Source: Caballeronia cordobensis (GTDB lineage Bacteria; Pseudomonadota; Gammaproteobacteria; Burkholderiales; Burkholderiaceae). Taken from it: a DNA stretch of 64,000 nt. Positions 1 to 14,589 of the stretch are shown here, piece by piece (the stretch's first letter is position 1; each line of letters opens with the position of its first letter). Location: positions 558,001 through 622,000 of the forward strand of contig NZ_FCNY02000001.1 in assembly GCF_001544575.2 (NCBI RefSeq), in the 5' to 3' direction. A model generated the notes under the pieces. It worked only from the letters and a program-made list of their open reading frames with translations, was not told where the DNA came from and did no database searches. The translations under genes and the position numbers were made by a program.

Positions 1-367
1 CCAGCAGTAACAGCACGGGATAAGGCACGGCGCGGTGCACTAGCTCGGCCAGGCGAGTCGCGTTGGCGGGCCTCTTCGCTGCGCCTCTACCGTCGCCTTG
101 CGCGGGATGACGAGCAGTAATGCTCAACACCGCCACCTCCAAATATTCGCGCTCATTGTCGCGATATTCGGCCACGCCTACCGTATTCGGTTTCAACGCT
201 GCGACCCATTGAACTTCCTCAATAGTGTCGTTAATAAGACGCTTGTCGGCACTGGTCGGTGCACCATTCTCAATCAGCATCTTCTTCGGGACACGTTGGT
301 TCACGCGGCAACTTACCGGCAACGCCAACGCCGAAATCAGCAAGCTTGTGAGCGCCTGCCCTGTCAT
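1..367 (-). CDS. DUF4391 domain protein (3' end outside window)
   Basis: The reading frame starts with an ATG at 367 that overlaps the stop of the upstream helicase gene in an ATGA junction, and it stays open to the left edge (about 122 residues visible). The N-terminal region contains VNQRVPKKMLIENG, then SADKRLINDTIEEVQW and ALKPNTVGV, the pattern of the DUF4391 family as I know it. Members are commonly encoded beside SNF2-type helicases and DNA methyltransferases in restriction-like operons, but no biochemical function is established. The four-base overlap indicates translational coupling with the helicase. The C-terminal part and any methyltransferase or endonuclease partner lie outside the window. 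Confidence 0.8.
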   Translation of the reverse strand, partial: MTGQALTSLLISALALPVSCRVNQRVPKKMLIENGAPTSADKRLINDTIEEVQWVAALKPNTVGVAEYRDNEREYLEVAVLSITARHPAQGDGRGAAKRPANATRLAELVHRAVPYPVLLLL

Positions 368-3300
368 GTAGTTGACTCTGGCAAAATTACGAGGAAGGCG
401 GCCACCTCAAAATCATTGGTACCGGCAAACTCGCCTCTCATCGCATGGGTGCCACCGGGAGAAAACAGGCTAGCCACGGCGCGCTCTTCGTTTTTGCCCA
501 CCACGGACGCTACTGCGGCGGCCAGTAGCTTCTGCGTGTGCCGCATGTCCTCGCCCTGCCGGGTGTTCTTGTCGAATTTGCCGCAAGCTCCGTCGTCAGG
601 AAGCTCACGCCCGAGCGCTAGGCGCTTGAGCCTATCCAGAATGCGCTTCGCCTGGGGATAGGGCAATAGCACGGCGCCGTCATCGCCAACGTGGGCCAAG
701 TAGATCGGTGCTAAAGGGTAGTCCGATTGGTGGCCCTTGGCGGCGACAGCACCCTCAGCGCGCAGGCAGAAGATTATGCCCGGAGCGATGTCCGCATCAA
801 TGCTGGTGGTCACGGCATAGGTGCCAAGTGGTAGGGTGTCAAGCTGGCCGGGATGCTCCTTGAGGTATTGCGCCAAGTCGATGCGGAAGTCGGTCAAAGT
901 CAGATCTGTAATGGACACGCCGTTGCTCAGGTCTTCCATATCAATGACCGTATCCTGCAGCTTGAGCAACTGCTTACGCCGATACTCCAAGTCGTTCATC
1001 GGGTTGCCCGACTGTTGCTCGATGAGGTTTTCTTCACCAGTGGCCGAGACATCCAGCAGCACCATGCGCCCACTGACGCGCTGCTCCAAGCCAATGTATT
1101 CCTCGAGCTCCATGTTGGGCCAAAAGTTCACGAGCTGAATGTTCTGATTAGGCGATCCGATGCGATCAATGCGTCCGAACCTTTGGATGATCCGTACGGG
1201 ATTCCAATGGATGTCGTAGTTCACTAGCCAATCGCAGTCCTGCAGGTTCTGCCCCTCGGAAATGCAGTCGGTGGCGATAAGCAGATCGATTTCGCCCTCG
1301 TCTTCCATATCGGCCGGCCTCTCCTTGGCGCGCGGCGCAAACGCCGAAAGCACGCTGCTCATGCTCTTGCGCAGGCCGGACAAAGTGGTCTGAATACCTG
1401 CACCGCCAGTGACCAAGCCAACGTCGATGCCAAGCACGCTTTTGGCCCACGGCGCCAGGTCGGCGTACAGATATTGCGCAGTGTCCGCAAACGCGGTGAA
1501 GACGATGATTTTGCGATTGCCGGCGTTGATGGGTCGGCTGCATTTCTGCTCAATCATGTCCCGCAGTTTTGCCAGCTTGGCGTCGCGCGCCGTGTCCACC
1601 TGTTGGGCAGCGGCCAACAACGTGGCCAGGCGGTTGTGATCCTCTATGAGATCTTGCTTCCATCGGATCAGATCTACGTCGCTTAGCAATACCTTGACCT
1701 TTCGCCCAACCAATAGGGACTCAAAAGCGGGGTCGTCGACGTCCACGTCGGCGATGTCGATTTCCTCGATGTCTTCGTCGTGATTTCCGATGTGAGCCAA
1801 CACTGCTTCCACGTCTTTGAGCTGTCGCTGAAGCGTCAGCGAAAACGAAGACACGGCACTCTCCATGCGCTTGAGAACATTGACCCGCAGCAGGTGGATC
1901 AGGCTCTCTTCGCGGTCAGCTTGGCGGAAGAAGCTCTCGCCGCCCCTGATTTCAGTGCTGTATTTGGCGTCATAGGCCGCTTGCTTGTGAGGCAATACAT
2001 AGCGCAGCGGCGCGTAGCTGGCCAGGTTCAGACGCCGGATTTCGAGGTTAATGTCCTTGATGGCGTGGAACTGGCCCGCCAAGTCCACGTCGGCCTTGAT
2101 GTTAATTGGAGGCAGACGATCCGGGAACTTGCCGGTCTCTGTCGTACCGTAATACTTTTCGACGTGCCGACGCGATCGCGCAATGGTCAAGTGGTCCAGT
2201 AGGGTAAAGTAGTCGAAGCCCAGCATTTCGACCAAGTGGGCCGGCGTGCGCTCGTCCTCGTCCATGTCCAGCCACCGGTTAAACTGGGTTTGCGCCCGGC
2301 GAGTGGTCTGCTCGATGCTGTCGATGCCATGCTCCGCCATCGCAGTGTCGTCGCCCTCAGTGACAAAGGCGATCTGATTCTTCAGGTCGGCTAAGCGATT
2401 GTTCACAGGCGTTGCCGACAACATGAGTACGCGCGTTTTGACGCCCTCTTTGACGATCTTGCGCATGAGCCGGTCGTACCGGGTCTCGGTGCCTTGGCGT
2501 GGGGACTTCTTGTTGCGAAAGTTATGACTCTCGTCGATGACTACGAGGTCGTAGTTGCCCCAGTTTACGTGGGTCAGATCGATGTCACCGGAGCTGCCGC
2601 TGTCACGCGACAGGTCGGTGTGGTTCAGCACGTCGTAATTGAACCGGTCAGCCGCTAGAGCGTTCCGTTTGTCGTTGGCCTTGTAGAGCGTCCAGTTATC
2701 GCGCAGACGCTTGGGCGCTAGCACTAGCACGCGGTCGTTACGCAGCTCGTGATACTTGATGACAGCCAAGGCCTCGAACGTTTTTCCTAGACCCACGCTA
2801 TCCGCGATGATGCAGCCGCCGAAGCGGGCCAGCTTGTCGATAGCACCGACGACGCCATCGCGCTGAAACTTAAACAGCTTCTTCCAGACGACGGTGTTGC
2901 GGATTCCGGTGGCCGACTTGACGATTCGCTCCTCGTCCATCTCGTCGCCCCGATCCCTGAACAGGTGATTTAGGATCGCGGCATATATCGTAAAAGCCGC
3001 GCGGTGCCGGCCCATGTCTTGGAGGACCTCGATTAAGGCTGGCCGGCTGTCGGGCTGCGCCTGCAGCGAGGCCCACTGCTGGTCAAGCCATCGAGCTAGC
3101 TGAGCCGCCTCGTCAGGCGACTCGGAAGCCTGAATCAAGTTCAGCGGGTTGCCGGGCGTCAGGCCCAAGCCCTCTGTGCTGAACGCGAACGAACCCAACA
3201 CCGCTTGGTCGGCAGTGCCGTTTGGCGCGCGCATGACCGCAGCGCCCTGCGGCACCCGACTGTGTGCCCGGCGCAACTCTACCTTGCCGGCTAGCCATTG

Positions 3301-3561
3301 TGCACACTGATTGGCCAGCCAGCGTGATTGCAGCCGATTGCGCGCTGCGCGGTCACCCTCGTCGCCAAGGAAATTGAGCTGGTCATTGACGGAAGGCAGG
3401 ATGAGCTGCACGCTACCCAGCTTGGCCAACGCGTCGCGCAGCTCGGAAAACGCAAACAACGAAAACGACGGCGTGACGCAGCCAAGCATATGCCCCGGCT
3501 CTAGGTGTGGGCGCATTAAGTCGATGACGCGGTCTGAACCACTGTTATTTATGAGTTTCAC
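364..3561 (-). CDS. SNF2-family helicase with N-terminal PLD-like domain
   Basis: A 1065-residue protein starting at GTG. The first ~190 residues resemble a phospholipase-D-like region (LGSFAFSTEGLGL near 122-134), but I see no intact HKD catalytic motif, so it may be a structural or binding version. The helicase core follows: Walker A DSVGLGKT near 254-261, the DEAH-like box VVIDESHNF near 340-348, and in the second lobe IATDCISEGQNLQ and IIQRFGRIDRIG, the SNF2 motifs V and VI. A translocase acting on DNA is expected. Overlap with the DUF4391 gene and position in an island suggest part of a restriction-like defence operon; this role is inferred. Confidence 0.85.
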   Translation of the reverse strand: MKLINNSGSDRVIDLMRPHLEPGHMLGCVTPSFSLFAFSELRDALAKLGSVQLILPSVNDQLNFLGDEGDRAARNRLQSRWLANQCAQWLAGKVELRRAHSRVPQGAAVMRAPNGTADQAVLGSFAFSTEGLGLTPGNPLNLIQASESPDEAAQLARWLDQQWASLQAQPDSRPALIEVLQDMGRHRAAFTIYAAILNHLFRDRGDEMDEERIVKSATGIRNTVVWKKLFKFQRDGVVGAIDKLARFGGCIIADSVGLGKTFEALAVIKYHELRNDRVLVLAPKRLRDNWTLYKANDKRNALAADRFNYDVLNHTDLSRDSGSSGDIDLTHVNWGNYDLVVIDESHNFRNKKSPRQGTETRYDRLMRKIVKEGVKTRVLMLSATPVNNRLADLKNQIAFVTEGDDTAMAEHGIDSIEQTTRRAQTQFNRWLDMDEDERTPAHLVEMLGFDYFTLLDHLTIARSRRHVEKYYGTTETGKFPDRLPPINIKADVDLAGQFHAIKDINLEIRRLNLASYAPLRYVLPHKQAAYDAKYSTEIRGGESFFRQADREESLIHLLRVNVLKRMESAVSSFSLTLQRQLKDVEAVLAHIGNHDEDIEEIDIADVDVDDPAFESLLVGRKVKVLLSDVDLIRWKQDLIEDHNRLATLLAAAQQVDTARDAKLAKLRDMIEQKCSRPINAGNRKIIVFTAFADTAQYLYADLAPWAKSVLGIDVGLVTGGAGIQTTLSGLRKSMSSVLSAFAPRAKERPADMEDEGEIDLLIATDCISEGQNLQDCDWLVNYDIHWNPVRIIQRFGRIDRIGSPNQNIQLVNFWPNMELEEYIGLEQRVSGRMVLLDVSATGEENLIEQQSGNPMNDLEYRRKQLLKLQDTVIDMEDLSNGVSITDLTLTDFRIDLAQYLKEHPGQLDTLPLGTYAVTTSIDADIAPGIIFCLRAEGAVAAKGHQSDYPLAPIYLAHVGDDGAVLLPYPQAKRILDRLKRLALGRELPDDGACGKFDKNTRQGEDMRHTQKLLAAAVASVVGKNEERAVASLFSPGGTHAMRGEFAGTNDFEVAAFLVILPESTT

Positions 3562-3646
3562 GGCTTCAGATCACCTGCTGACGTTCTATTCTGTTCATGA
3601 GACATCTTGCCGGTGAGGCCTCGCCGCGCTCGCACTCGTGTAGGCG

Positions 3647-4219
3647 CTAAACAGCTGCGCCCTGGATGCGGGGTGCCACCTTATAGATGGTTGTGCGCGA
3701 GACCTTGTAGCGCTCCGCGATTTGACCGACAGGAATTGTCGGGTCAGACATCAGGCGCTTTATCTCCCTAATTTGTCGCGCATCCAGCTTCGGCTTGCGT
3801 CCACCGGCACGACCTCGCGCACGCGCGGCGTTCAAGCCCGCACGTGTGCGCTCCCGGATCAGGTTGCGCTCGAACTCTGCCAACGCCGCGAACACATGGA
3901 AGACCAGCTTCCCCGCCGCACTGGAGGTTTCGACCTTTTCGGTGATGCTTTCGAAGCCGACCCCCTTCTCTGCTAATCCAGCAACTATGCGCACAAGGTC
4001 GGGCAGACTTCGGCCAAGCCGGTGCAGCCGCCACACCACGAGCGTATCGCCGGCCCGCAGCGCTTTAAGACAATGGTCGAGTTCCTGCTGAACAGCGGCC
4101 GTGCCGCTGGCCTTTTCTTCGTAGATGGAAGCAACCCCCGACGAGCATAGTGCGTCGCGCTGCAGGTCTAAGTTTTGGTCATCTGTCGAAACGCGGGCGT
4201 AGCCGATCCGTTGATTCAT
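3647..4219 (-). CDS. Serine resolvase/invertase
   Basis: A 190-residue small serine recombinase. The N-terminal catalytic domain begins MNQRIGYARVSTDDQN with the nucleophilic serine near position 11, followed by VVWRLHRLGRS, the conserved arginine region, and FAALAEFERNLIRERT leading into the long E helix. The C-terminus (about 140-190) is a helix-turn-helix with IAERYKVSRTTIYK. Proteins of this type resolve Tn3-like cointegrates or invert DNA segments. No Tn3 transposase is visible nearby, so it may be a stray or island-borne recombinase. Length and motif order look intact. It is separated by 85 bases from the upstream end of the helicase gene. Confidence 0.9.
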   Translation of the reverse strand: MNQRIGYARVSTDDQNLDLQRDALCSSGVASIYEEKASGTAAVQQELDHCLKALRAGDTLVVWRLHRLGRSLPDLVRIVAGLAEKGVGFESITEKVETSSAAGKLVFHVFAALAEFERNLIRERTRAGLNAARARGRAGGRKPKLDARQIREIKRLMSDPTIPVGQIAERYKVSRTTIYKVAPRIQGAAV

Positions 4220-4675
4220 TGACAGTTGCCGGACGTTGAATAATTGATGGGAATTTTAACAGACGAATGGGCTGTAACGAGGCGACCCGACGATAGCTCG
4301 GCCGTGTTCAGAAAGCCACCGTTTTCTTGGCTAGCACTCGATACTTGCGCTTTCAGGCGTGCCTGTTATAACCAGCGGGAAGTAGACCAGCTCAAGGGCA
4401 CGAAGGCGTACGTGTGCTCGGTAAGGCCGGCGCGGCCGACTTGTGCTCACCAGCTTGCTGCGCTTCGCGTATGTTGCGGTCCAGCCGCCGGACCTCCTCC
4501 TCTAGCGTGTCAATCTGACCGAGGGATGTACGCGTCACCGGCTGGGACCGCCCGCCGTCGGGCGGATTCGGCCATACGCCGCTGGTTGCAGGCGTCGTCG
4601 GTCGAACGTTCAGGCGTCGGCTTCGCCCCCGTAACGGCCCATCCGATTGATAGAGCCGTCGCAGTTCCGTTGTCA
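4220..4675. other. Stretch without a convincing gene
   Basis: Long frames exist on the plus strand but their translation shows no recognisable family and a biased Arg/Pro/Ala composition. On the minus strand around 4420-4520 a short frame reads LGQIDTLEEEVRRLDRN, which looks like a coiled-coil fragment of a decayed gene. Nothing else is supported. Confidence 0.4.
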
Positions 4676-4846
4676 GATTTCAGAAACGAACGGTCGCCGC
4701 GTGGCCAACCCGCGAGGTGCGGGAGCCGAACCCGACCAGCGGGCGCACGCTCCAATATCGACGAGGCCAGCATCCCTAATCAGCGACAGGTGATAGTGGA
4801 TCTGCGCAATGTCCCCCTCAAGCTGCACTTCTTGGAAGTCTGGAGC
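4676..4846 (-). pseudogene. Remnant resembling DUF2513 protein
   Basis: On the minus strand a short open stretch without a start codon (a TGA lies directly upstream) reads VQLEGDIAQIHYHLSLIRDA followed by GLVDIGACARW. The pattern of I-YHL-L--AGL resembles the winged-helix core of DUF2513 proteins that are common in mobile DNA. It ends at a stop after about 55 codons, far shorter than the ~120 residue family. I read it as a decayed fragment. The family call is from memory of the pattern and is weak. Confidence 0.35.
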
Positions 4847-4860
4847 TCACAGCCACGCTA

Positions 4861-5469
4861 TCAGCTCCTACTTTTGTCCCCGCTCAGCTTTTTTCTCGAC
4901 TTCTTGACTGCAACTTTCTTTTCTGCCGAAGAAGAGTCCGCTACCTGAGCGGGCATCGTCGCGTTAGGTTCCAGCAGAGCCAAGCGTCGCTCTTCATCTT
5001 TCTCTGCATCGGACAACGCCGACTTTCGGAAATCAGCGCTCGGAAGCTGCAACATGCCATGTGAACTCCGTGCACTGGTCGTCGAGAGCATCTCCCGAAT
5101 CGCACCGTACAGCATCGGATAAGCGGAATAACGCACAGCCTTGAATCGATCGACACCATGCATTTCGCTGCCCAAATATGTCAGATAGGCGATCACTTCT
5201 ACATCAAACTCATATGGGAGAGTCTTCTTCTCTTGATCCTTTTCCAAGGCGGTCATAGAAAAAACGACTTGGAAATGACGCGGATCCGCTGCCTCCTCGT
5301 CAGGAAAATTGACCCGCGTCCGACGAACGAAGTTAACTCCAGAGAAATTGAAATTAATTTGTGGATAAGCACAGTTCGCTTCTTCCGAACCGGGATCGTA
5401 TTTGGGATTTGCCGCGACATGAATTTTGGTGAATTCAAGCCGATCAAGTGAAAGCGAAGCGGGTTTCAT
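4861..5469 (-). CDS. SecB-like chaperone of a TAC module
   Basis: Homologous in pattern to export chaperone SecB and to the SecB-like chaperones of toxin-antitoxin-chaperone systems: the start MKPASLSLDRLEFTKIHVAA, then YPQINFNFSGVNFVRRTRVN, then FDVEVIAYLTYLG, and a C-terminal helix region containing PMLYGAIREML. A Lys/Ser-rich tail follows. I chose the ATG at 5469, which has GAG seven bases upstream and lies 17 bases after the antitoxin stop; an upstream ATG at 5523 would overlap the antitoxin gene. In known TAC systems (Mycobacterium Rv1955-Rv1957) such a chaperone folds and protects the antitoxin. The same role is inferred here from gene order. Confidence 0.85.
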   Translation of the reverse strand: MKPASLSLDRLEFTKIHVAANPKYDPGSEEANCAYPQINFNFSGVNFVRRTRVNFPDEEAADPRHFQVVFSMTALEKDQEKKTLPYEFDVEVIAYLTYLGSEMHGVDRFKAVRYSAYPMLYGAIREMLSTTSARSSHGMLQLPSADFRKSALSDAEKDEERRLALLEPNATMPAQVADSSSAEKKVAVKKSRKKLSGDKSRS

Positions 5470-5485
5470 ATTAAACTCGGCACGT

Positions 5486-5971
5486 TCAACCAAACGCAAC
5501 ACGGGTTTCATCCTGCGTATCACCCGTTTCTTGGTGTACGCGATGACGCTCAGCCTGCTTCCATCGTGGTACCAGTCTAATCACGTTATCGGGAGATTGG
5601 AAGAATTCGATTCCGTCACTACCCCCACTTCCTTCAGCACCGATCGTCATCAACTCTCCGTCGCCCTCGCGCGTTTCCCCTCCATCGCCCGCCGCAACAG
5701 TGCCGGAATTTCCAATGGAAATGAAAAGCTCCGTTTCGACGGCATCAGCAAGCATATAAAGCGTGTCAAGAGTCACATTGCCCCGACCCTTCAAAATTCG
5801 AGAAATATTGGCTTCGGACACGCAAAGCCGCTCCGCAATATCGACATTCTTCAAATTTTTGTTTCGCATGGCGGTTTTCAGCTGAAGCATGGGATCGAGT
5901 TTACGTACAGCGCCCCAGATCGCGGCCTTTTCCTTAATTTCCGCAGCAAATTCCGCATTGCTCTTCGCCAT
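5486..5971 (-). CDS. HigA-like XRE antitoxin with long C-terminal tail
   Basis: About 161 residues. An XRE-type helix-turn-helix occupies roughly residues 30-82 (NVDIAERLCVSEANISRILK, then LDTLYMLADAV). The C-terminal half is a glycine/glutamate-rich linker followed by IEFFQSPDNVIRLVPRWKQ, a hydrophobic patch that would fit the chaperone-addiction (ChAD) segment known from TAC antitoxins. The ATG at 5971 is preferred because GAGGTGA lies five bases upstream; a GTG nine bases earlier is also possible. It follows the toxin gene by about a dozen bases and precedes the SecB-like gene, giving the toxin-antitoxin-chaperone order. It probably represses its own promoter. Confidence 0.85.
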   Translation of the reverse strand: MAKSNAEFAAEIKEKAAIWGAVRKLDPMLQLKTAMRNKNLKNVDIAERLCVSEANISRILKGRGNVTLDTLYMLADAVETELFISIGNSGTVAAGDGGETREGDGELMTIGAEGSGGSDGIEFFQSPDNVIRLVPRWKQAERHRVHQETGDTQDETRVAFG

Positions 5972-5983
5972 TTTACTCACCTC

Positions 5984-6505
5984 TCAAATAAACTTAATTT
6001 CCGCCAAACCAGTGATCAACTCTTTGATCTCTCGTGTACATGGCGTCTTTACCTCATTTGGCGTATTTTGATCTTTTTTATGATATGCCATTAGCAGGAA
6101 AATTATCTTAATGTCACCAGAACTAACTGGATAAAAGTAAATCCTATCCTTATTCTGATACTTTATTTCCCAAAGATTTACGGTCTTGGATTGAAACTTA
6201 AAATCATGTGCGACCTTGACATTTACCGGCGTATCTTCCTTCAAGGTTTTCTGATAATGATCGACCTGAACGGCATGAAATAATGCACGCACCATCACCA
6301 AGTAATTAGACTTCTTCTCCGCCGAGTCGACAAAATCCTTAACGGTTTTCGAAAAACGACTGGCCGTGTAATCACCCGCACCACAAATAAGGGCGACATC
6401 CCACCGCTGCTTCGCCGCCGTCGGCTGGAGACCTGGCAGGTTGATAGCCGGGTCTCCAATCAGGCCAATCAGCTCTTTTAGGGTCAGTTTGCGTGCTCGA
6501 ATCAT
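5984..6505 (-). CDS. HigB/RelE-like toxin of the TAC operon
   Basis: A 173-residue protein, longer than a usual HigB (about 100-125). The C-terminal half has the RelE/HigB signature order: VNLWEIKYQNKDRIYFYPV strands, then IKIIFLLMAYHKKDQNTPNE, the loop with KKDQNTP that is typical before the last helix. Such toxins cleave mRNA on the ribosome. The first ~70 residues are not typical of HigB. Toxin-first order matches higBA operons, and the next genes are an XRE antitoxin and a SecB-like chaperone. The start ATG has GGGG about five bases upstream. Enzyme activity is inferred only. Confidence 0.75.
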   Translation of the reverse strand: MIRARKLTLKELIGLIGDPAINLPGLQPTAAKQRWDVALICGAGDYTASRFSKTVKDFVDSAEKKSNYLVMVRALFHAVQVDHYQKTLKEDTPVNVKVAHDFKFQSKTVNLWEIKYQNKDRIYFYPVSSGDIKIIFLLMAYHKKDQNTPNEVKTPCTREIKELITGLAEIKFI

Positions 6506-6512
6506 AGCCCCG

Positions 6513-6537
6513 AACTTAACTTATAAATTAACTTTCC
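6513..6537 (-). promoter_or_regulatory. Candidate promoter/operator of the TAC operon
   Basis: Directly upstream of the toxin start the minus strand carries two copies of AAGTTAA separated by five bases (plus-strand TTAACTT at 6516-6522 and 6528-6534). The sequence is AT-rich inside a GC-rich genome and includes TTTATAA, which could be the -10 element. HigA-type antitoxins bind such repeats to autoregulate. Binding is inferred. Confidence 0.45.
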
Positions 6538-7485
6538 GCAACGCCGATGTGCGGGGTAGACATCAAATTTCAACCCCAAGCCGTGCTTCTCTTGGTGCCG
6601 AAAATAGCTGATGTCGCTCTTGGCAGGCCTGGCGCCGCTTTGTAACAAGATCTTACATCAAACACCGGATCGCTCCCCAAATGCTGGTCGATGCAGAGTT
6701 CACTTGGAGTCAAGAAAGCGCTCAACGTCCCGAAACCTCACGGTTGCCCATTCTGAACGCGAGCCTCGGCTATGCAGCGCCCGCCCGCGCCCCGCCGCGT
6801 GCGCCGCGGGCGGTCATCGTGCGTCGCGATAGCACGAGACACGCTGGCCGCGAAGGAAGTCGAATTCTCGTTGCCCAAAGCCAAGGCAAGTTCACTCTGG
6901 TGAAGATGGTGGCGTGGACTGGCGCACCATTAGCCAGCGATTCAGCAACTGACGTTTGTCTTTGCGGACATCACGATCGAACTCCTGTTGTGGAACGAGG
7001 CGGATTGCCTCATTCGCCAACATACGGAACTGCAAACCTGGCCCCTCTTCACGCCAAGGTCTGACCGTACCCGTATGCCCCGAGTTGTTTAGGTCCTACG
7101 GCCGCCTATGGGCACCGGCCGGCCCTGAGAAATCACGACTCGAGCGTCGCCGCAATTTGGCGAGAGACAGTCGAGCTATCGGACGTCTTGCAGATCGTGT
7201 GAACCAACAGCGGTTTGTAGATCGTGCTACTGATTCGACCGTTCATGACGCGTAGGGAGCGCGCGCCCGATATGTAACCGTCAATCTCTTAACGTTTAGT
7301 GGCATCAAGGATCATTTTTCTTATAACCAAGTTTTCCAGCTTTGCGACGATAGGGGATGAATTGTCTACGTGTTGTTTCAGATGCAAGCCCTCATTGTAG
7401 ATAACGCCTAATAGAAATGCGACTTCGGGAATGTGTGTGCCGATAGACACCGCGAAATCGAGTTTTTTCCGCGTTCCGTTTGTGT
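6538..7485. other. Gene-poor stretch with possible decayed coding
   Basis: No frame in this stretch resembles a known family over its length. Short minus-strand segments look protein-like, for example LQFRMLANEAIRLVPQQEFD followed by a run of charged residues near 6960-7040, and a 37-codon frame starting MNGRISSTIYKPLLVHTICK near 7250-7140, but they are interrupted by stops and frame changes. It is best read as debris of earlier genes between the TAC operon and the ATPase. Confidence 0.4.
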
Positions 7486-9034
7486 CTAAAAATCTTTGCC
7501 CGGATTCAGGGTCGCTAATCTTCTCATATAAAATTCTTCTATTTTTACTCTAACGTAGCAGCAGACCGCAAATGGATCATATTTTTCCTCACCCTTACTA
7601 TATTTTCCCCATTCCTCGGCAATGAAAGCGTGAAATTTAACCGATTTCCCCAAAGTCTCTTTTAAACCGAGGGCTGCGAATTCTTTTTGGAGGTCTATTG
7701 ACGATGGATCGAAGTGAAGGTGGTGTCTTTCAACGCCAGCCTTGATTGAAATGTTGCCACGATGAATAATTAATTTCTTTAAATGCTCGTTTATAACTGG
7801 CGCCCGTTTGTCGACGAAATATATCTTTTGATCTTGGAACGCGTGATTCTTAAAATAAACCGGATTCAAGTGCGTAAAAATGAGCGGGTAGATCCGCTTT
7901 TCAGCCGTTTTCATGTCATCGATAAGATTCGATATGTAATACTGAACAGCCGTGAGATTCCCGTCATCGAGATAATCAAAAACTTCGTCAACTATGATGA
8001 CGCAATCGCGCTTACGTATTTTGCCCTTGATCCGCTGAATCATTGCCGCGAATGTCAGTGAATCACGTTGACCATTTGAAATATGGAGCGCGTTAGGAAA
8101 TTCAACAATCAACATACCCTTGCGCTCTTTCGGTTTAATTTTCTTCCACGTCGTATCGAAGGAGGAAATGAGTTGTTTGTACGCTTCTTTGTCACGCACG
8201 TATTGAGCATACACGCATGCGGCCTGAAAACGTTTTGGATCTTTTCCATAAAGAGTACATAGCTGATATGCAGCAAATAAACTGTCCACGCGCTCCTTTA
8301 TCTCCGGAACATGCTGCATGACGATATCAGCAATTCGGCTTAAGCACGATATTTCATTGAGCCTGTTTTCACAGTTTACTTTGATCCAATCACGAATTCC
8401 ATTTGCGTCCCCGTTCTGGATATTAATTTCGCTTGCAATCACTCCCCATTTATCTTGGATTCTGGCGCCAGAGAATTTGTTCAGCGTCGCGTACTCATTG
8501 GAAAGTGCATCGATTGCGGCGGCGTTATTCAATATGCAATCAATCCCCTCAAGAAATTTTCCATTCTTCCCGAATGCCTTGCGAGTTTCCGCGATCCCAT
8601 AAACAAAATGCACAGCTGCTGGAATTTTATCGACGAGGACCACCTCATTTATTTTTAACGAGGCCGACGCAGTCGTGAATCCACTTACGTTGTTCTTCAC
8701 GGCTTTAGCTTGTAGCCGGCTGTTGATCACATATACGTCGAGGACTTTTGAAATTTCATTCTTCGCCTCATCCGCCGTCAAAACGCAGATTTGGCCATCT
8801 TCGCTCTTCAGCTCAATGGTCAGTATCGGTTTATTGGCTTTGTTGCCCTCATGAAGAGGGTCGTCGTCTAACTTCAGCCTCGCTTGGTTTAAGCTCGCGA
8901 ACGCTGCCGTTATAGAGCTTTTCCCGAAACCGTTTGGTGCAACTAATAGCGACGGCTTGTTTGGCAGGATTTCCGCCGATATTAAGTTCTTTAGCGCCTT
9001 TTACATTTTCGACTTTTATGCGACGGATGGTCAT
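7486..9034 (-). pseudogene. ABC/SMC-type ATPase, frameshifted near its start
   Basis: The coding region reads MTIRRIKVENVK from an ATG at 9034, then changes frame near 8990-8998 to continue ALKNLISAEILPNKPSLLVA and the Walker A motif APNGFGKSS. From there it is open to 7486. The ABC-like signature NGQRDSLTFA and Walker B VIIVDEVFDYLDD follow in the second half, so head-domain motifs are complete (about 515 residues if repaired). One extra G in AAAGGCG would explain the break. AAA/SMC-like ATPases of this kind act with nucleases or other effectors in defence islands. It lies between the TIR-like gene and the TAC operon on the same strand, and is AT-richer than flanking core DNA. It may be a true pseudogene or a sequencing error. 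Confidence 0.75.
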
Positions 9035-9039
9035 TTGTA

Positions 9040-9207
9040 TTATCCGAATTGGTATCTTTGGGCATGCAAGGTTCTCCAAATCCCCGAACTAGCCGAGCGC
9101 TGCCTGTTGAATGAACGCAACAATACCGGGTCGGTACCCGCGCGCTCGCCGGCCAAAATGACCAGAGGCGGCGCACCGATGCCATTGAGCGTGGTGGGCA
9201 GGTTCAT
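9040..9207 (-). CDS. Possible 55-residue ORF coupled to the TIR-like gene
   Basis: An ATG overlaps the TIR-like gene's stop in an ATGA junction and opens a 55-codon frame (MNLPTTLNGIGAPPLVILAG...QRYQFG) that ends just before the ATPase start. I recognise no family. The overlap suggests either a real small coupled gene or the truncated start of a gene lost when the ATPase segment was joined here. Confidence 0.3.
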   Translation of the reverse strand: MNLPTTLNGIGAPPLVILAGERAGTDPVLLRSFNRQRSASSGIWRTLHAQRYQFG

Positions 9208-10064
9208 AGCCGCATGACTTTGTTCCAGTCAACCTCATGGCCGGCCGCTTGAAGTTCACGTCCCAAGGCCTGTTTCCAGCCACCGCTGTCATCCATCTTT
9301 TCCCAGACTACACCGGCAAAGTCACTGGGAATTTCCAGCGTCCCGCGCTTGAGCGCACACACCCTTTCCCTCCCGAGACGCCCAATGAAATAGCCCAATT
9401 CAAGGAGGACATTCTGCCTGGCTCGCGGCTCGGGTTCGCTCCCCTTCGCGCATCCAGCATCGTCGGGCGTCAGCAGCACCACGGCGAAATGCACATCGCC
9501 GTGCGCCTCAATCTTTTCGATCACCGTGCGCCCTTGATTGGCCTGTTCGTGCAGGATGACTGGCTCGAAGTCAATTCTTTCGAGGAAGCGGGCGACAGTT
9601 TCGCGCGCAGCTCCGTCGTGTCCATGAACGACAAATACCCGTCGCGACAGCGGCGCCTTCCGTGACTTATCCTCAGTAGGAGCATATTCGACGTCAGCGA
9701 GCTCGGCCTGCATTGACGTTCTTGCTGACTGTAGAAGTCCGATAGCTCGGTCTACGTTCTCGCCCACTTCTTCCCTAAGTCGCACCTCTAAATCACTATG
9801 CTTGGCGAAAAAGCCCGGCCGCGGCGCAGGCACGTACAAACTTCCAGCAGCCTGGAAGTGCGTGTAGCGCGAAGTGTTGTAACCAAAGCATCTCTCAAGC
9901 GTGTCGCGGATCCCCGCCTGCAAAGCAACGAGCGCGAACCTGTTGTTGTCGGAGTACGTCCTGACGTCGAAGGCGCGCAACTCAGCTATGTGTCCGTCGA
10001 GCTCGCGGATACGCCGTTCGATCTGAGCAGGCAACAGAGTAGAAGGCGCAGCAGTCGTGCTCAT
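9204..10064 (-). CDS. TIR-like (PF10137/Cap12-type) domain protein
   Basis: About 286 residues. The C-terminal half matches the predicted nucleotide-binding TIR-like family found in CBASS Cap12 and related defence effectors: RRVFVVHGHDGAARE (strand A and the BB-loop side), FEPVILHEQANQGRTVIEKI, HFAVVLLTPDD, and RARQNVLLELGYFIGRLGRE with the conserved Glu. The N-terminal ~140 residues are a helical region of unknown role. In characterised relatives the TIR domain hydrolyses NAD+ after sensing a signal. No nucleotide cyclase is visible next to it. The ATG at 10064 (GGA upstream) is chosen; ATGs at 10076 and 10097 are alternatives. A perfect palindrome lies just upstream. Confidence 0.8.
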   Translation of the reverse strand: MSTTAAPSTLLPAQIERRIRELDGHIAELRAFDVRTYSDNNRFALVALQAGIRDTLERCFGYNTSRYTHFQAAGSLYVPAPRPGFFAKHSDLEVRLREEVGENVDRAIGLLQSARTSMQAELADVEYAPTEDKSRKAPLSRRVFVVHGHDGAARETVARFLERIDFEPVILHEQANQGRTVIEKIEAHGDVHFAVVLLTPDDAGCAKGSEPEPRARQNVLLELGYFIGRLGRERVCALKRGTLEIPSDFAGVVWEKMDDSGGWKQALGRELQAAGHEVDWNKVMRL

Positions 10065-10135
10065 TCGATAGTCCATTCTTAATTCGATAAAGGACATTCT
10101 CACATATAGGTGCAACGCTCATCGAGCATTCGGCG

Positions 10136-10156
10136 TGTGCGCACGACGTGCGCACA
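10136..10156. promoter_or_regulatory. Perfect palindrome upstream of the TIR-like gene
   Basis: TGTGCGCAC, then GAC, then GTGCGCACA: two perfect 9-base arms around three bases, 40-90 bases upstream of the possible start codons of the TIR-like gene. Its size and place suit an operator for a dimeric regulator. No regulator gene is adjacent, so the binding protein is unknown. Confidence 0.5.
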
Positions 10157-10307
10157 ATACCCCGGTCTCAAAACAGAGAACTATAGAGACAGCGTGTTTG
10201 AAACAGATAATGAGGTTGACGCGCCCACCCACTGTCAGGGCGGACCTAAGGGCCTCAGCCCCGCTCCGATGCATCGGGTTTGGGCGCTCGGAGACAGCCA
10301 TTAGAAT

Positions 10308-10697
10308 TCATTCTGCCTTCGATAACCTTTCGATTCGAACGTTTGACTCATCAATGAAAGCCAAGGCATCGTCCAAAGCATCGTTAGCTGCTTTTGTAGA
10401 TTTCGCAACGCTCTCAAGTAGGTCGAGTAAATCAGGCGGCAGGGGGTCGTTGAAGTCATCGCGAACATCAAGACTGGAGACGAATTGCTCTCCGTGCTCC
10501 ACGGAAAATCTTACAAGCTCCCGGTGCCCGTCCGGATATTTCTTAATGCAGAGTCCGATAGGGGAATCCGCATCGCGGTAGTAAATCGCCCTTCCTGCGT
10601 CAAGATGCTCGCGCGCTGCACGGCCATCGTCGGATTGCAGAAGACGAATCCACTCGTCCGTATCATCTGGCAGACCTTTGAATTGGTCGTCTTTCAC
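10308..10697 (-). CDS. Small protein with YPDG-RELV motif
   Basis: A 129-residue hypothetical protein with a GTG start behind a strong GGAGGTG ribosome binding site nine bases upstream. The middle reads LCIKKYPDGHRELVRF, shared with the small protein encoded at 11839-12147 (ILKVYPDGRRELVTF) together with a preceding AGRAIYY/AGQPAYV segment. The C-terminal ~50 residues are helical and acidic. No signal peptide or membrane segment. I do not recognise a named family. The shared motif suggests two members of a small island-borne family. Confidence 0.6.
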   Translation of the reverse strand: MKDDQFKGLPDDTDEWIRLLQSDDGRAAREHLDAGRAIYYRDADSPIGLCIKKYPDGHRELVRFSVEHGEQFVSSLDVRDDFNDPLPPDLLDLLESVAKSTKAANDALDDALAFIDESNVRIERLSKAE

Positions 10698-10947
10698 AGT
10701 AGGTCCACCTCCGAGGCTGAATGAAGTTTAGCTGCTAAATCTGCCGAGTTCGCCAGCTTCTTCGCATCGGCCGTAGGTCGTTAGCGGTGCGTTCATGATA
10801 TTAGCTTAAGGGCAGTGCGCTGTTCGACTAGCGAAGGATTAGCCTTTGAATCGCGACTGTCGTCGCAAGCTGTCGCCAGGTTTGAGCACCAAAGCACTGG
10901 GAATATTAGCGCTGAGCTGCAAGGGGGCCTGTAAGACTCTGAAAGAG

Positions 10948-11256
10948 CTATACCGCTTCAGGACGACCTTTGTTGCTGTGTCGCTTTCGAATTTTTCGGT
11001 CCAGCTTCCTTACTTGTTTCTCAAGCTCCTCAATCTTTGCGAGATAGGGCCTGAGCTCGTCCATGATACGATCCTCCCGTTCCCGGAGTTGCTTGACCAT
11101 GAATGCGTAGTCTCGCTCGTACTTTTGACGAGCCACCCACGTTTCCGACCACGCACGATTAAGCTCTTCGCTGTCCTTCCTCAGCTTCCGCAATTCGCGT
11201 ATCGCCGTCTTCAGTTGCGCATCTTCTGCCAGTTCAGCAGCTAGTTCCGGGTTCAT
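10948..11256 (-). CDS. Coiled-coil hypothetical protein
   Basis: About 102 residues from an ATG with GAGG seven bases upstream. Nearly the whole chain is charged and heptad-like (LKTAIRELRKLRKDSEELNR, later IEELEKQVRKLDRKIRKRH), predicting one long coiled coil with a basic C-terminus. No catalytic motif is visible. It could be a DNA- or partner-binding accessory protein. A longer GTG/TTG-started version to 11313 is possible. Function unknown. Confidence 0.5.
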   Translation of the reverse strand: MNPELAAELAEDAQLKTAIRELRKLRKDSEELNRAWSETWVARQKYERDYAFMVKQLREREDRIMDELRPYLAKIEELEKQVRKLDRKIRKRHSNKGRPEAV

Positions 11257-11838
11257 GTCAGGCCTCGCTTGCGCACGGTCCACTGGCACATCGCTTCGAT
11301 TACAGCTCCGCACAAACTCGCCGTTCTAAGTCTGCGGGATTGAATAAATCGCGCGCCCCCGTACTGTCAATGAACGGAGCTGACGGCCTTACGCGCCATT
11401 GCCGTTGATGCCATCGCACGCAGATTCAGGGCCTCTTGCACAATCTCAAGCCGCGAGGCACGGCTTCGAGGCCCTTACGGGACCGGCATGAGCCTCCAAA
11501 GCCCCAAAACAACCGCGCCTTGATGTTGTAGATTCGAGCCGTGCGAAAAATCGTGCCGCCGCCTCTACGTTGACAGTACGGGGGCGGGGTTAGTTGCTAT
11601 AGGCTCCACTCCTGTGGGGCCCGTCTTCTCCTTGTCGATACGCCGATTCGAAGCGGAGATGAACGACAGGCGTCGTCTACAGCGTCCTTCTGGACGGACG
11701 CAGCAATCAAGGAACGCGCTCACGCTTTTCCCGCTCCACCATCGATCACCCTTCGTTATTAATCCAGCTCGCCGCTCGGCAGAGGGGTGGGGTTCTCAAC
11801 CCCTCCCCTCTACCGAGGAGCTTATTTCTTTCGGGCCG
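11257..11838. other. Stretch without a convincing gene
   Basis: No supported coding region. The stretch contains the inverted-repeat-bounded segment at 11354-11586 and, at 11784-11820, a short hairpin (GGGTTCTCAACCC type) upstream-facing to the next gene's 3' end. Long frames here are antisense shadows. Confidence 0.4.
11354..11586. repeat. Short element bounded by 17-bp inverted repeats
   Basis: CGCCCCCGTACTGTCAA at 11354-11370 is repeated as its exact reverse complement at 11570-11586, enclosing about 200 bases with no convincing gene. The arms resemble terminal inverted repeats of an insertion sequence, and the size suits a MITE or the relic of a larger element after internal deletion. 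I see no clear target-site duplication. An alternative is a large cruciform-forming regulatory or recombination site. Confidence 0.5.
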
Positions 11839-12147
11839 TCAACCTCCGTCCGCCGCGTCCGGCGGTCTCCCGAGACGGGGCTTGACGGAATAGCGCCGCG
11901 GTCCCTTATAGCTCGGCAAAACCGCTATCAAATGCTCGCCTTGCAGGTCAAATGTCACCAGCTCCCGTCGACCGTCCGGATACACCTTCAAAATTCCATC
12001 CATACCTTCCGGAGCCGACACATACGCCGGTTGACCGGCTGCTAAGACCGCTTCAAACGGCCGCTCACGCAGAATGGCTCTAATGTCCAGCTCGAACGGG
12101 CGCGGCTTCCGCGTCGAACGTGCCGCTTTGCGACCTGACCAGCCCAT
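11839..12147 (-). CDS. Small protein with YPDG-RELV motif, downstream of HTH gene
   Basis: About 102 residues, starting at an ATG that overlaps the stop of the HTH gene (TGATG), so the two are translationally coupled. The centre reads AGQPAYVSAPEGMDGILKVY then PDGRRELVTFDLQGEH, matching the protein encoded at 10308-10697. The C-terminus is basic (RRYSVKPRLGRPP). No known family recognised. Coupling to an AlpA-like regulator suggests a mobile-element accessory gene. Confidence 0.55.
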   Translation of the reverse strand: MGWSGRKAARSTRKPRPFELDIRAILRERPFEAVLAAGQPAYVSAPEGMDGILKVYPDGRRELVTFDLQGEHLIAVLPSYKGPRRYSVKPRLGRPPDAADGG

Positions 12148-12413
12148 CACACCGAGGTCCCAAGCGCCGACACATCAAATCCAACAACCTCGACCTCCGA
12201 CACTGCATCGGCGACGTGCAGGCCAATCCACCTTTCTACATCTTCCGCTCGCCAAAGAAGGCGTTTCGTATTGGGAAGTCGGCAGATTGGCGGAAGAGAC
12301 TGGGGATTTCGCGTCGCATCGCTACGGATGCTGGCGACAGACTTTTGTAGATGCTCGGCGAGTTGATCGACCGTAAGTAGCGCTTGCATGGACATGGCTG
12401 TTTTTTGCGCCAT
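12147..12413 (-). CDS. AlpA-like helix-turn-helix protein
   Basis: About 88 residues from an ATG at 12413 (a TTG at 12458 would add 15 residues). The pattern LLTVDQLAEHLQKSVASIRS, then LPPICRLPNTKRLLWRAEDV followed by ERWI is the MerR/AlpA-type winged HTH used by excisionases and island regulators. It probably binds DNA near the island end; the tRNA attachment region is about 240 bases upstream. Its coupling with the next small gene points to one transcript. Excisionase versus regulator cannot be told from sequence. Confidence 0.65.
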   Translation of the reverse strand: MAQKTAMSMQALLTVDQLAEHLQKSVASIRSDATRNPQSLPPICRLPNTKRLLWRAEDVERWIGLHVADAVSEVEVVGFDVSALGTSV

Positions 12414-12599
12414 GTCACATTTGTGCACACAGCGGCGTTGGTTGGCTGATGTATGCAAGGTTGACTTTAAGCATCTTTAAAGTCTCGGTAGAAAAGCGAA
12501 GTGTTTTCTACCAGTGAGCGGTGGGCGGTGGGCTCTTGCGCTACCACTCGACGCCACAAATCTGCCACATCGCGTGTGCATAAAGGTGCGATAGAAAGC

Positions 12600-12639
12600 G
12601 AAACAACGCACTACATCGCAAGACGTAGTGCGTTGTTTC
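12600..12639. terminator. 15-bp perfect hairpin beyond the tRNA 3' end
   Basis: GAAACAACGCACTAC and its exact reverse complement flank a 10-base loop. On the tRNA's strand it begins 13 bases after the CCA end and could terminate the tRNA transcript, though no strong U tract follows. It also marks the junction between the island and core DNA, so it could instead belong to the integration site. Confidence 0.5.
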
Positions 12640-12652
12640 TAAAGCAAATTCG

Positions 12653-12728
<76 letters not shown>

Positions 12729-12784
12729 AACGAACCAAAATTGTACCACAGCAAAATCGCCATCAGCGCAAGCTGCCCATCCCG

Positions 12785-13129
12785 TCACTTCTGCGGCGCC
12801 CCCGCCAGAACCCACGCGACCACAGTCCTGATATCCGCATCGTTCATTCTGGGATGCGAGGGCATCGGAATCGGCCCCCACACGCCCGCGCCGCCGTTCT
12901 TCACCTTCTTTTCGAGCTGCGCGCTTGCCTGCGGCTGTCCCTTGTACTTCTCCGCGATCTGTTGAAACGACGGCCCCACGAGCTTGCGATCGATCGCGTG
13001 ACAGCCCATGCACGCATTGCCCCGCGCGATCGCCATCGCGTTGGCGGAAGAAACCGGCTGCTCCGCCGCGCCCGCGCCAAACGACGCGGCGACCACCGCC
13101 GCGCCCAACATTACACGCAACACGCTCAT
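12785..13129 (-). CDS. Class I c-type cytochrome
   Basis: A 114-residue periplasmic cytochrome c. Residues 1-22 form a signal peptide ending GAGA. The haem-binding CMGCH is at 40-44, and Met89 in PIPMPSH is the likely sixth ligand. Size and motif spacing fit the cytochrome c-551/c-552 group, soluble electron carriers to terminal oxidases or reductases. The start ATG overlaps the stop of the BON lipoprotein gene upstream, so the two are co-transcribed. The specific redox partner is not evident. Confidence 0.92.
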   Translation of the reverse strand: MSVLRVMLGAAVVAASFGAGAAEQPVSSANAMAIARGNACMGCHAIDRKLVGPSFQQIAEKYKGQPQASAQLEKKVKNGGAGVWGPIPMPSHPRMNDADIRTVVAWVLAGAPQK

Positions 13130-13929
13130 TTCGCCGCCGGAGCCGGAGCGGGATTGCCCGGATGCACATCCGAATTCTTCACCGGCGCGGGCGACTGCGT
13201 GTCCAGCGGACGCGAGCTCACGCCCGAATCAGGCACCGTGCCGACCGTCGCTTCGGCCGGCGCGCTCGCCGCCGAGACCGCGCTCGCATCGGATGCGGCC
13301 GCCGCCTCGAGCGCCTGCGCCTCTTCCGGCTTGATGTACTGGAAGACCTTCACGACCTGCTCGACGCCCGGCACGCGCGCGGCGACATCGGCGCCATGCG
13401 CGCCTTCATCCTGCGTGACGAGTCCCATCAGATAGACGACGCCGCGTTCGCACACCACCTTGTAGTAGTTCGCGCGCAAGTCCTTCTCGCCGACCATCGC
13501 GGTCTTCACGCGGCCTTCGAGGTACGAGTCGTTCGCGCGCGACGAAATCGAGCTCGCACCCTGGATCGCCAGTTCATTGACGATGCTGCCCACGTTGTTG
13601 ATGTCGCGCACGACCGCTTCGGCCTTCTGCTTCGACGCGTCATCGGGGACTTCGCCGGTCAGCAGCACGCGCCGGTTGAAGACGGTCACGTTGACATGCG
13701 CCGTATCGGGCAGATTCTCGTTGATGCGCGAAGTCGCCTTGATCTGGATCTCGCGGTCTTCCGTCTGCGCGCCGAGCGTGCGGCGATCCGTGGCGATCAA
13801 CGTGCCGCCGGCCGCCGCGCCGACGACCGCGAGCGCGCAGCCCTGCAACGTCAATGCGACTCCCGACAACAGGCTCACCACCAGCGTGGCCTGGGCTAGC
13901 GTCGCCTTGACGCGTGTCTTGTTCGTCAA
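13126..13929 (-). CDS. BON-domain outer-membrane lipoprotein (DolP/YraP-like)
   Basis: A 267-residue lipoprotein: signal peptide with lipobox LQGC (Cys31), then two BON domains (about 60-125, with VNVTVFNRRVLLTGEVPDD, and about 130-205, with CERGVVYLMGLVTQDE). The last ~60 residues are Ala/Ser/Pro-rich and probably disordered. DolP-type proteins support outer-membrane integrity in the periplasm. The gene follows diaA by about 20 bases and overlaps the cytochrome gene, the same order (yraN, diaA, dolP) seen in E. coli yraNOP. Confidence 0.92.
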   Translation of the reverse strand: MTNKTRVKATLAQATLVVSLLSGVALTLQGCALAVVGAAAGGTLIATDRRTLGAQTEDREIQIKATSRINENLPDTAHVNVTVFNRRVLLTGEVPDDASKQKAEAVVRDINNVGSIVNELAIQGASSISSRANDSYLEGRVKTAMVGEKDLRANYYKVVCERGVVYLMGLVTQDEGAHGADVAARVPGVEQVVKVFQYIKPEEAQALEAAAASDASAVSAASAPAEATVGTVPDSGVSSRPLDTQSPAPVKNSDVHPGNPAPAPAAK

Positions 13930-13950
13930 CTCCGTTCCCCCTTTTCAGTT

Positions 13951-14589
<639 letters not shown>

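Follow-up and report, generated by a model that had tools for sequence, protein, structure and literature searches.

We analysed a 64,000-nucleotide stretch of the Caballeronia cordobensis genome (contig NZ_FCNY02000001.1, positions 558,001 to 622,000 of the forward strand), hereafter called the window. Our subject is a candidate toxin-antitoxin-chaperone (TAC) operon near its left end. TAC systems are self-poisoning switches, known in other bacteria to be able to shut down cells infected by phage. A sequence-only reading had placed three open reading frames (ORFs) of such an operon at 4861..6537, with no strand named. The ORFs are at these positions, on the minus strand. Transcription runs from toxin through antitoxin to chaperone. 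Features of the operon and its upstream block are as follows.

6528..6534, minus strand: AAGTTAA repeat seen in the sequence, distal copy, 12 bp away from the next
6516..6522, minus strand: AAGTTAA repeat seen in the sequence, toxin-start copy
6506..6545, minus strand: candidate promoter/operator block; 39/40 bases identical in Paraburkholderia heleia, 37/40 in genome G974
5984..6505, minus strand: toxin gene, ORF of 173 aa; diverged RelE/HigB (Gp49, PF05973)-like
5486..5980, minus strand: antitoxin gene, 164 aa; GTG start with an in-frame ATG at 5971; XRE/HTH_3 core and C-terminal tail of about 72 aa
5540..5596, minus strand: candidate chaperone-addiction (ChAD) segment, antitoxin residues 129-147, SPDNVIRLVPRWKQAERHR; putative binding segment
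4861..5469, minus strand: SecB-like chaperone gene, 202 aa from ATG 5469; Lys-rich C-terminal extension

The toxin and antitoxin genes are 3 bp apart. The gap between the antitoxin and chaperone genes is 16 bp with ATG 5469 as the chaperone start. A longer chaperone ORF (220 aa) opens at GTG 5523, inside the antitoxin gene, and would overlap it. Since homologues start at the position that corresponds to ATG 5469, this is the likelier start. In G974, the chaperone ORF opens 5 codons before the ATG 5469 equivalent, immediately behind the antitoxin stop codon.

Gene order is the same in P. heleia (locus L005), where identity is 92% for the toxin, 90% for the antitoxin and 92% (220 aa) or 94% (202 aa) for the chaperone. 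G974 has the same operon, with identities of 76%, 67% and 77%, respectively. At the DNA level, homology to a 10.7-kb P. heleia locus covers window positions 4849-6704 (89.7% identity), and homology to a 14-kb stretch of G974 covers 4973-6576 (72.1%). Beyond the operon and its promoter, window positions 1-14000 have no further match to these P. heleia and G974 stretches at E ≤ 1e-5; the flanks are unrelated. Ratios of non-synonymous to synonymous substitution rates, each estimated in two ways for the window against P. heleia, were 0.08 and 0.14 (toxin), 0.19 and 0.22 (antitoxin) and 0.13 and 0.19 (chaperone). As judged from these ratios, all three genes are under purifying selection. Synonymous sites are close to saturation between the window and G974.

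The AAGTTAA direct repeats had been put forward as a candidate operator. Both copies are present, and they lie within a block where 37 of 40 bases are shared with G974 although the operon overall is 72% identical. Extended upstream, the block is identical to G974 at 45 of 60 bases. On this comparison, it is a good candidate operator.

Families of the toxin and antitoxin

The length of the toxin, 173 residues, is as previously given. Its sole Pfam match up to E = 1 is Gp49 (14.7 bits, E = 0.033; cut-off 23.9 bits). The same holds for the P. heleia toxin (15.9 bits, E = 0.014). Gp49 also matches the G974 toxin (14.5 bits, E = 0.037), which scores best in Pfam with a P-loop kinase model (E = 0.0034). 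All four matches are below cut-off, and the Gp49 stretches overlap in all three copies.

We also scored the toxins with profiles. One combined 24 Gp49 sequences (34 matches were listed and 26 entered, 2 of them empty) with 4 TAC HigBs. The three toxins reached 11.7, 10.8 and 9.5 bits, above 900 shuffles, while the other 261 window ORFs of at least 100 aa reached 6.7 bits at best. A further database row, orf-0_19160 (10.6 bits), corresponds to the open frame of the window toxin itself, and we did not treat it as a decoy. A profile of seven TAC HigB toxins gave 8.1, 7.9 and 4.4 bits, which ranks the window toxin 1, the P. heleia toxin 2 and the G974 toxin 9 among 903. With an MqsR profile, the corresponding ranks were 180, 256 and 25. 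On these ranks, we rejected an MqsR-type toxin.

In a 10-row alignment of the three toxins with seven other TAC HigBs, H100, R121 and K143 are invariant. The sequence-only reading had credited the toxin with about 70 extra N-terminal residues. This was an overestimate; strand 1 and two helices of the other HigBs (135-161 aa) align there. What remains as extra at the N-terminus is an insertion of about 22 residues that follows residue 7 and is shorter in the comparison with two of the seven HigBs; loop insertions are also present. The main part of a poor AlphaFold model (predicted local distance difference test score, pLDDT, 41) runs helix-helix-four strands-helix. This order is compatible with the RelE topology described in PMC11980606. 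We consider the toxin likely, with good confidence, to be of RelE/HigB type. The proposed search for a RelE/HigB domain was answered in part: the profile with 24 Gp49 rows placed the toxin clearly above shuffles and the seven-toxin profile did so narrowly, while the Pfam cut-off and a four-sequence profile were not passed. A RelE fold, the absence of which had been named as a refuter, is weakly supported by these profiles and not contradicted by the poor model.

The antitoxin had been described as an XRE protein. Consistent with this, residues 34-81 match HTH_3 (PF01381) at 32.3 bits, above the cut-off of 23. The HigA model TIGR02607 scores 21.2 bits (E = 1.9e-4), below its cut-off of 47.7. 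Against G974, 79 of residues 1-90 are identical and 30 of 72 in the tail. A conserved core with a variable tail is the pattern given for TAC antitoxins in PMC5105189.

A stretch of the tail, itself described as hydrophobic, had been named as the possible chaperone-addiction segment. We scored 13-mers by a simple scheme of our own, with ChAD rules taken from PMC5105189. The best aromatic/basic 13-mer, rank 1 of 152 in the protein, is RLVPRWKQAERHR (residues 135-147). This segment overlaps and follows the named stretch and is aromatic and basic, not just hydrophobic; in this detail the earlier description did not hold. Ten HigA-type TAC antitoxins were scored; L037, L041 and the MqsA antitoxins were left out, and the L040 tail start was set too early. 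Nine of the ten have at least one tail Trp, the exception being G974. It is likely that the antitoxin tail is held by the dedicated chaperone.

Relationships of the SecB-like chaperone

We use "housekeeping" for SecB proteins labelled by a PF02556 match and by their neighbours, not by function. A PF02556 search of the C. cordobensis genome (E ≤ 1) recovered its housekeeping SecB and did not recover the window chaperone. By tblastn, the window chaperone is 32.5% (E = 2e-11) and 27.6% (E = 7e-10) identical to two plasmid proteins annotated "protein-export chaperone SecB". Both are encoded just 3' of MqsA antitoxins and score 24.0 and 23.8 bits with PF02556 (cut-off 26); the Cupriavidus protein was scored as its identical copy L003. 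These MqsRA-SecB modules, from plasmid pTs485 of Candidatus Thiodictyon syntrophicum and a Cupriavidus taiwanensis plasmid, hold the closest plasmid chaperone relatives (28-33% identity). They differ from the window operon in that their antitoxin is MqsA (PF15731 above cut-off). Their toxin ORFs match no toxin model and are called MqsR by position only. On pTs485 (L006 4991-10025), the gene that immediately follows the MqsA-SecB TAC is annotated as the DISARM helicase DrmA.

A profile of ten chaperones, one row of which (L038) matches PF02556 by itself, retrieves the solved SecB 1fx3 at E = 3.3e-5. It has matches in 23 of 398 genomes of the phylum, including TAC chaperones (L080-L083) and solitary SecBs. 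A six-row profile, made from the window clade and three MqsRA-type chaperones, gave 8 of 9 housekeeping SecBs higher scores than any of the 900 shuffles. The three MqsRA-type chaperones alone placed all nine above shuffles. Hence, the SecB profile check suggested for this protein failed as a direct PF02556 scan and succeeded through plasmid relatives and profiles. We conclude from these comparisons that the chaperone is homologous to SecB, through its relatives rather than by direct family scan.

The sequence-only reading would have been refuted had the protein grouped with housekeeping rather than TAC SecB. We examined this with a tree of 24 chaperones. All nine housekeeping SecBs, that of C. 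cordobensis included, form one side of a 100/100 branch that leaves out the window clade. On this basis we rejected a housekeeping SecB identity for the window chaperone, with the caveat that an approximately unbiased (AU) test did not reject the window clade placed with housekeeping SecB (p = 0.17). The window clade sits among TAC chaperones; the group that contains it (84/78) also holds three chaperones of MqsRA modules and another two of HigBA modules. Two other arrangements were rejected: the window clade joining MqsRA chaperones only (p-AU 0.033), and all HigBA-module chaperones as one clade (p-AU 0.0033). Taken together, the tree and AU tests indicate that chaperones do not follow toxin-antitoxin family. 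Consistent with this, TAC chaperones are described as paired with HigA, MqsA and HicB antitoxins (PMC5105189). Several separate communities of TAC chaperones have been described, with 33 TAC chaperones absent from PF02556 (PMC4257090). Briefly, the tree left out L041, L042, L007 and L004 (identical to L003), L084, L086, L087, L089, L091-L093, L095-L097, L099 and L100. L083, with an uncertain start, was trimmed of 27 N-terminal residues, and L037, without a full toxin gene, was labelled by its antitoxin.

Mobile elements, neighbours and distribution

The operon had been assigned to a defence island. Type III restriction-modification genes, a Snf2 helicase and a TIR protein in the same element bear this out. 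Features of the surrounding element are as follows.

12653-12728, minus strand: tRNA-Ala(CGC), with its 3' part repeated
12647..12697, no strand: attachment-site copy over the 3' part of tRNA-Ala(CGC); 51/51 repeat at contig positions 551254-551304, left of the window
9204..10115, minus strand: TIR protein with a CAP12/Pycsar-type TIR domain (PF10137); PADLOC candidate PDC-S35
364..3561, minus strand: Snf2-type helicase, 1065 aa; PADLOC C3a139 "HKD+Snf2", with a weaker match to DrmD
L103 12603-17556, outside the window on its left: pair of type III restriction-modification genes, sharing the element with the TAC operon

The 51-bp repeats enclose a 19.4-kb element that contains the operon. The gene just inside the repeat at 551254-551304 encodes an integrase; the type III restriction and modification genes follow. 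Next come the Snf2 helicase, a resolvase, the TAC operon, an uncharacterised ORF, the TIR protein and small ORFs. A further 3' repeat of tRNA-Ala (39/39) is present at contig positions 542599-542637. These repeats (L103 11255-11305 and 2600-2638) suggest two adjoining integrated elements. At least 5 of 40 other genomes of the genus (G124, G139, G591, G593 and G1045) have a same-contig match to part of tRNA-Ala (46-85 bp, at least 90%), with the second copy roughly 11-31 kb away. Hence, integration at this tRNA seems to recur.

The G974 copy of the operon is enclosed in 8.2 kb bounded by tRNA-Gly on one side and a 24-bp repeat of the tRNA end on the other. An integrase-like gene adjoins tRNA-Gly (Phage_integrase 22.7 bits, cut-off 27.1; DUF6538 above cut-off), and the element also has a serine recombinase. 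We conclude that the operon is cargo of tRNA-integrated mobile elements.

Two side observations concern ORFs of these elements. A 431-aa ORF (7486-8781), flanked by the TAC operon and the TIR gene, has only weak matches, to DUF2959, RecF and Mad3/Mad8, and may be part of a different defence system. In the tRNA elements of both genomes, serine recombinases of similar sequence have ORFs of about 300 aa nearby (L102 9602-10543 and L103 7148-8059) that lack a Pfam match. These ORFs are possibly genes of one element family.

The operon is rare. With the window's own genome counted in each case, the chaperone is present in 4 of 200 genomes of the family (two of the four share one identical MqsRA-type locus), the antitoxin in 3 of 299 genomes and, across the order, the toxin in 2 of 399. 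The second toxin match, in G350, is a doubtful short one (53 residues at 35% within a 407-aa frame) and we took it as chance. Within the genus of P. heleia, a toxin profile matches 2 of 144 genomes. The toxin was found neither in scans of viral contigs nor, by tblastn, in phages and plasmids. For the chaperone, phages gave no match and one viral contig was reached through alignment A1. No paper on the operon was recognised by title or abstract opening among those listed from the literature covered, most subscription journals being outside it.

HigB-HigA-SecB operons are also present in other genomes and on one viral contig. This contig, a 45-kb IMG/VR sequence (L048), has the operon at 1-1464, with a chaperone 28% identical over 57-165. 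Other ORFs of L048 presumably resemble phage lysis genes, and its TAC is probably carried by a prophage. At L037 1110-1788, the antitoxin and SecB-like chaperone are in overlapping frames, and the toxin gene seems missing or shortened (86-aa ORF). This is a possible decayed TAC.

Proposed mode of action and rival explanations

It is highly probable that the operon is a tripartite TAC of HigB-HigA-SecB (HigBAC) type, carried as cargo of tRNA-integrated mobile elements. The claim of a complete TAC operon is supported by gene order, by homologues, by chaperone relatives annotated SecB beside MqsA antitoxins and by a tree that sets the chaperone apart from housekeeping SecB. It would be a known kind of system in a diverged new operon, with toxin and chaperone below Pfam cut-offs. 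Annotation by those models alone would miss the TAC.

Three known systems are relevant. The HigBAC of E. coli C496 also has a toxin of the RelE superfamily, an antitoxin and a SecB-like chaperone (HigC). It is activated by the lambda major tail protein and plausibly acts by abortive infection, as described in PMC11980606. It belongs to another host group, and the window toxin and chaperone, being below Pfam cut-offs, are likened to it by description. The HigB1-HigA1-SecB(TA) system of M. tuberculosis (Rv1955-Rv1957) has the same gene order. Its antitoxin carries a Trp/basic segment, WHRLSSYR, in the C-terminal extension, which compares with RLVPRWKQAERHR of the window (PMC5105189, PMC6377645). 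The accounts in those sources give two similar tail stretches, whereas the window antitoxin has one clear, putative segment; in addition, neither the window chaperone nor its three-row profile matches a solved SecB structure. CmdTAC shares the TAC logic, with the chaperone as phage sensor, and is triggered by a phage capsid protein (PMC11618068). Its toxin is described there as an mRNA ADP-ribosyltransferase, a family with no match among the proteins of the window operon.

By analogy with E. coli C496 HigBAC and CmdTAC, we slightly favour an anti-phage role, which would probably take the form of abortive infection. The XRE antitoxin would bind the conserved AAGTTAA block and repress the operon. 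Its aggregation-prone C-terminal tail would be held by the dedicated SecB-like chaperone, allowing the antitoxin to fold. Once folded, the antitoxin would neutralise the toxin, a predicted RelE/HigB-type mRNA interferase. The chaperone may be drawn off by misfolded proteins or, as happens with E. coli HigBAC and CmdTAC, by a phage structural protein, and the antitoxin would then be lost. The freed toxin would cut mRNA, growth would halt and infection would be aborted.

Several results weigh against the HigBAC assignment. For the toxin, the margin of the seven-toxin profile is narrow (best shuffle 7.3 bits, a lead of 0.6-0.8 bits), and the four-sequence TAC-HigB profile failed to lift the toxins above the shuffles. 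Comparison of the three-row toxin profile with TAC HigB by hhalign was not significant (P = 0.061). The poor toxin model came from a two-row alignment (window and P. heleia), and its first Foldseek row, HigB2, was not significant (E = 0.13). The chaperone alone has no Pfam, NCBIfam, PADLOC or PDB match. Its three-row window-clade profile found no SecB in the PDB, was not significant against housekeeping SecB by hhalign (P = 0.083) and placed 2 of 9 housekeeping SecBs above 900 shuffles. Set against the eight or nine lifted by MqsRA-type rows, this indicates that the SecB homology runs through MqsRA-type intermediates. The six-row profile left the housekeeping SecB of C. cordobensis at rank 14. 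The AlphaFold model of the chaperone, from a two-row alignment of the same kind, was poor (pLDDT 44), and among the 50 Foldseek rows listed for it there was no SecB. The G974 antitoxin tail has no Trp and its best 13-mer ranks 9 of 150. Finally, a consensus scan for sigma-70 found no site in the upstream block. The AU test result for the chaperone, given above, belongs with these points.

The toxin could have another fold, for example MqsR-like or that of an unrelated enzyme, and be paired with a HigA-type antitoxin and a SecB chaperone. In favour are the absence of any curated toxin model at cut-off, the P-loop kinase match of the G974 toxin, the poor fold model, the failed four-sequence profile and the MqsA antitoxins beside the closest plasmid chaperone relatives. 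Yet Gp49 matches overlapping stretches of all three copies, and shuffles score below the window and P. heleia toxins with both the Gp49 and the seven-toxin HigB profile, though not with the MqsR profile. The strand and helix order of the weak model also fits RelE. Hence, we regard a different toxin fold as unlikely. We regard it as very unlikely that the SecB-like protein is a diverged export chaperone merely beside a two-gene toxin-antitoxin pair. At two aligned positions, the window chaperone reads K15 and A19 where, in what we take to be the E. coli numbering, SecB has D20 and E24. The latter are the SecA-contact residues of E. coli SecB (PMC4257090). The genome already has its own housekeeping SecB. 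Furthermore, the likely start of the chaperone gene is 16 bp past the antitoxin stop, and the gene accompanies the pair in all three genomes with the operon. An export function would fit the unrejected placement beside housekeeping SecB and the ability of TAC chaperones to replace E. coli SecB when overexpressed (PMC5105189).

The nearest competitor concerns role rather than identity. The TAC operon may serve as an addiction (stability) cassette of its mobile element, not in phage defence. Loss of the element would deplete antitoxin and chaperone, and the cell would be poisoned. Carriage by two different elements, at tRNA-Ala (51-bp repeats) in the window genome and tRNA-Gly (24-bp repeats) in G974, argues for this, as do low G+C (0.43-0.51, compared with 0.64 in window positions 14001-64000) and a patchy distribution. 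However, the window element also has the type III restriction-modification pair, Snf2 helicase and TIR protein, which go beyond stability needs. Moreover, stability and defence roles can coexist. We see an addiction cassette as a real possibility, and as less probable than defence.

A more specific origin for the HigBAC-type operon can be proposed tentatively. It may represent a TAC lineage that arose by chaperone exchange, joining an MqsRA-grouped SecB to a HigBA-type toxin and antitoxin, with a new subfamily of BECR toxin and a tail-chaperone pair retuned to phages of Burkholderiaceae. The exchange would account for the grouping of the SecB with MqsRA chaperones and the rejection of a single HigBA chaperone clade. 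The new subfamily is suggested by the N-terminal insertion and by scores below current toxin-model cut-offs. We hold this combined proposal to be rather doubtful.

In Burkholderiaceae, the module passes from one tRNA-integrated element to another as a self-contained cassette, in one instance alongside other defence genes. If true, exchange of chaperones between HigBA and MqsRA systems would offer a natural test of co-evolution between the chaperone-addiction tail and its chaperone.

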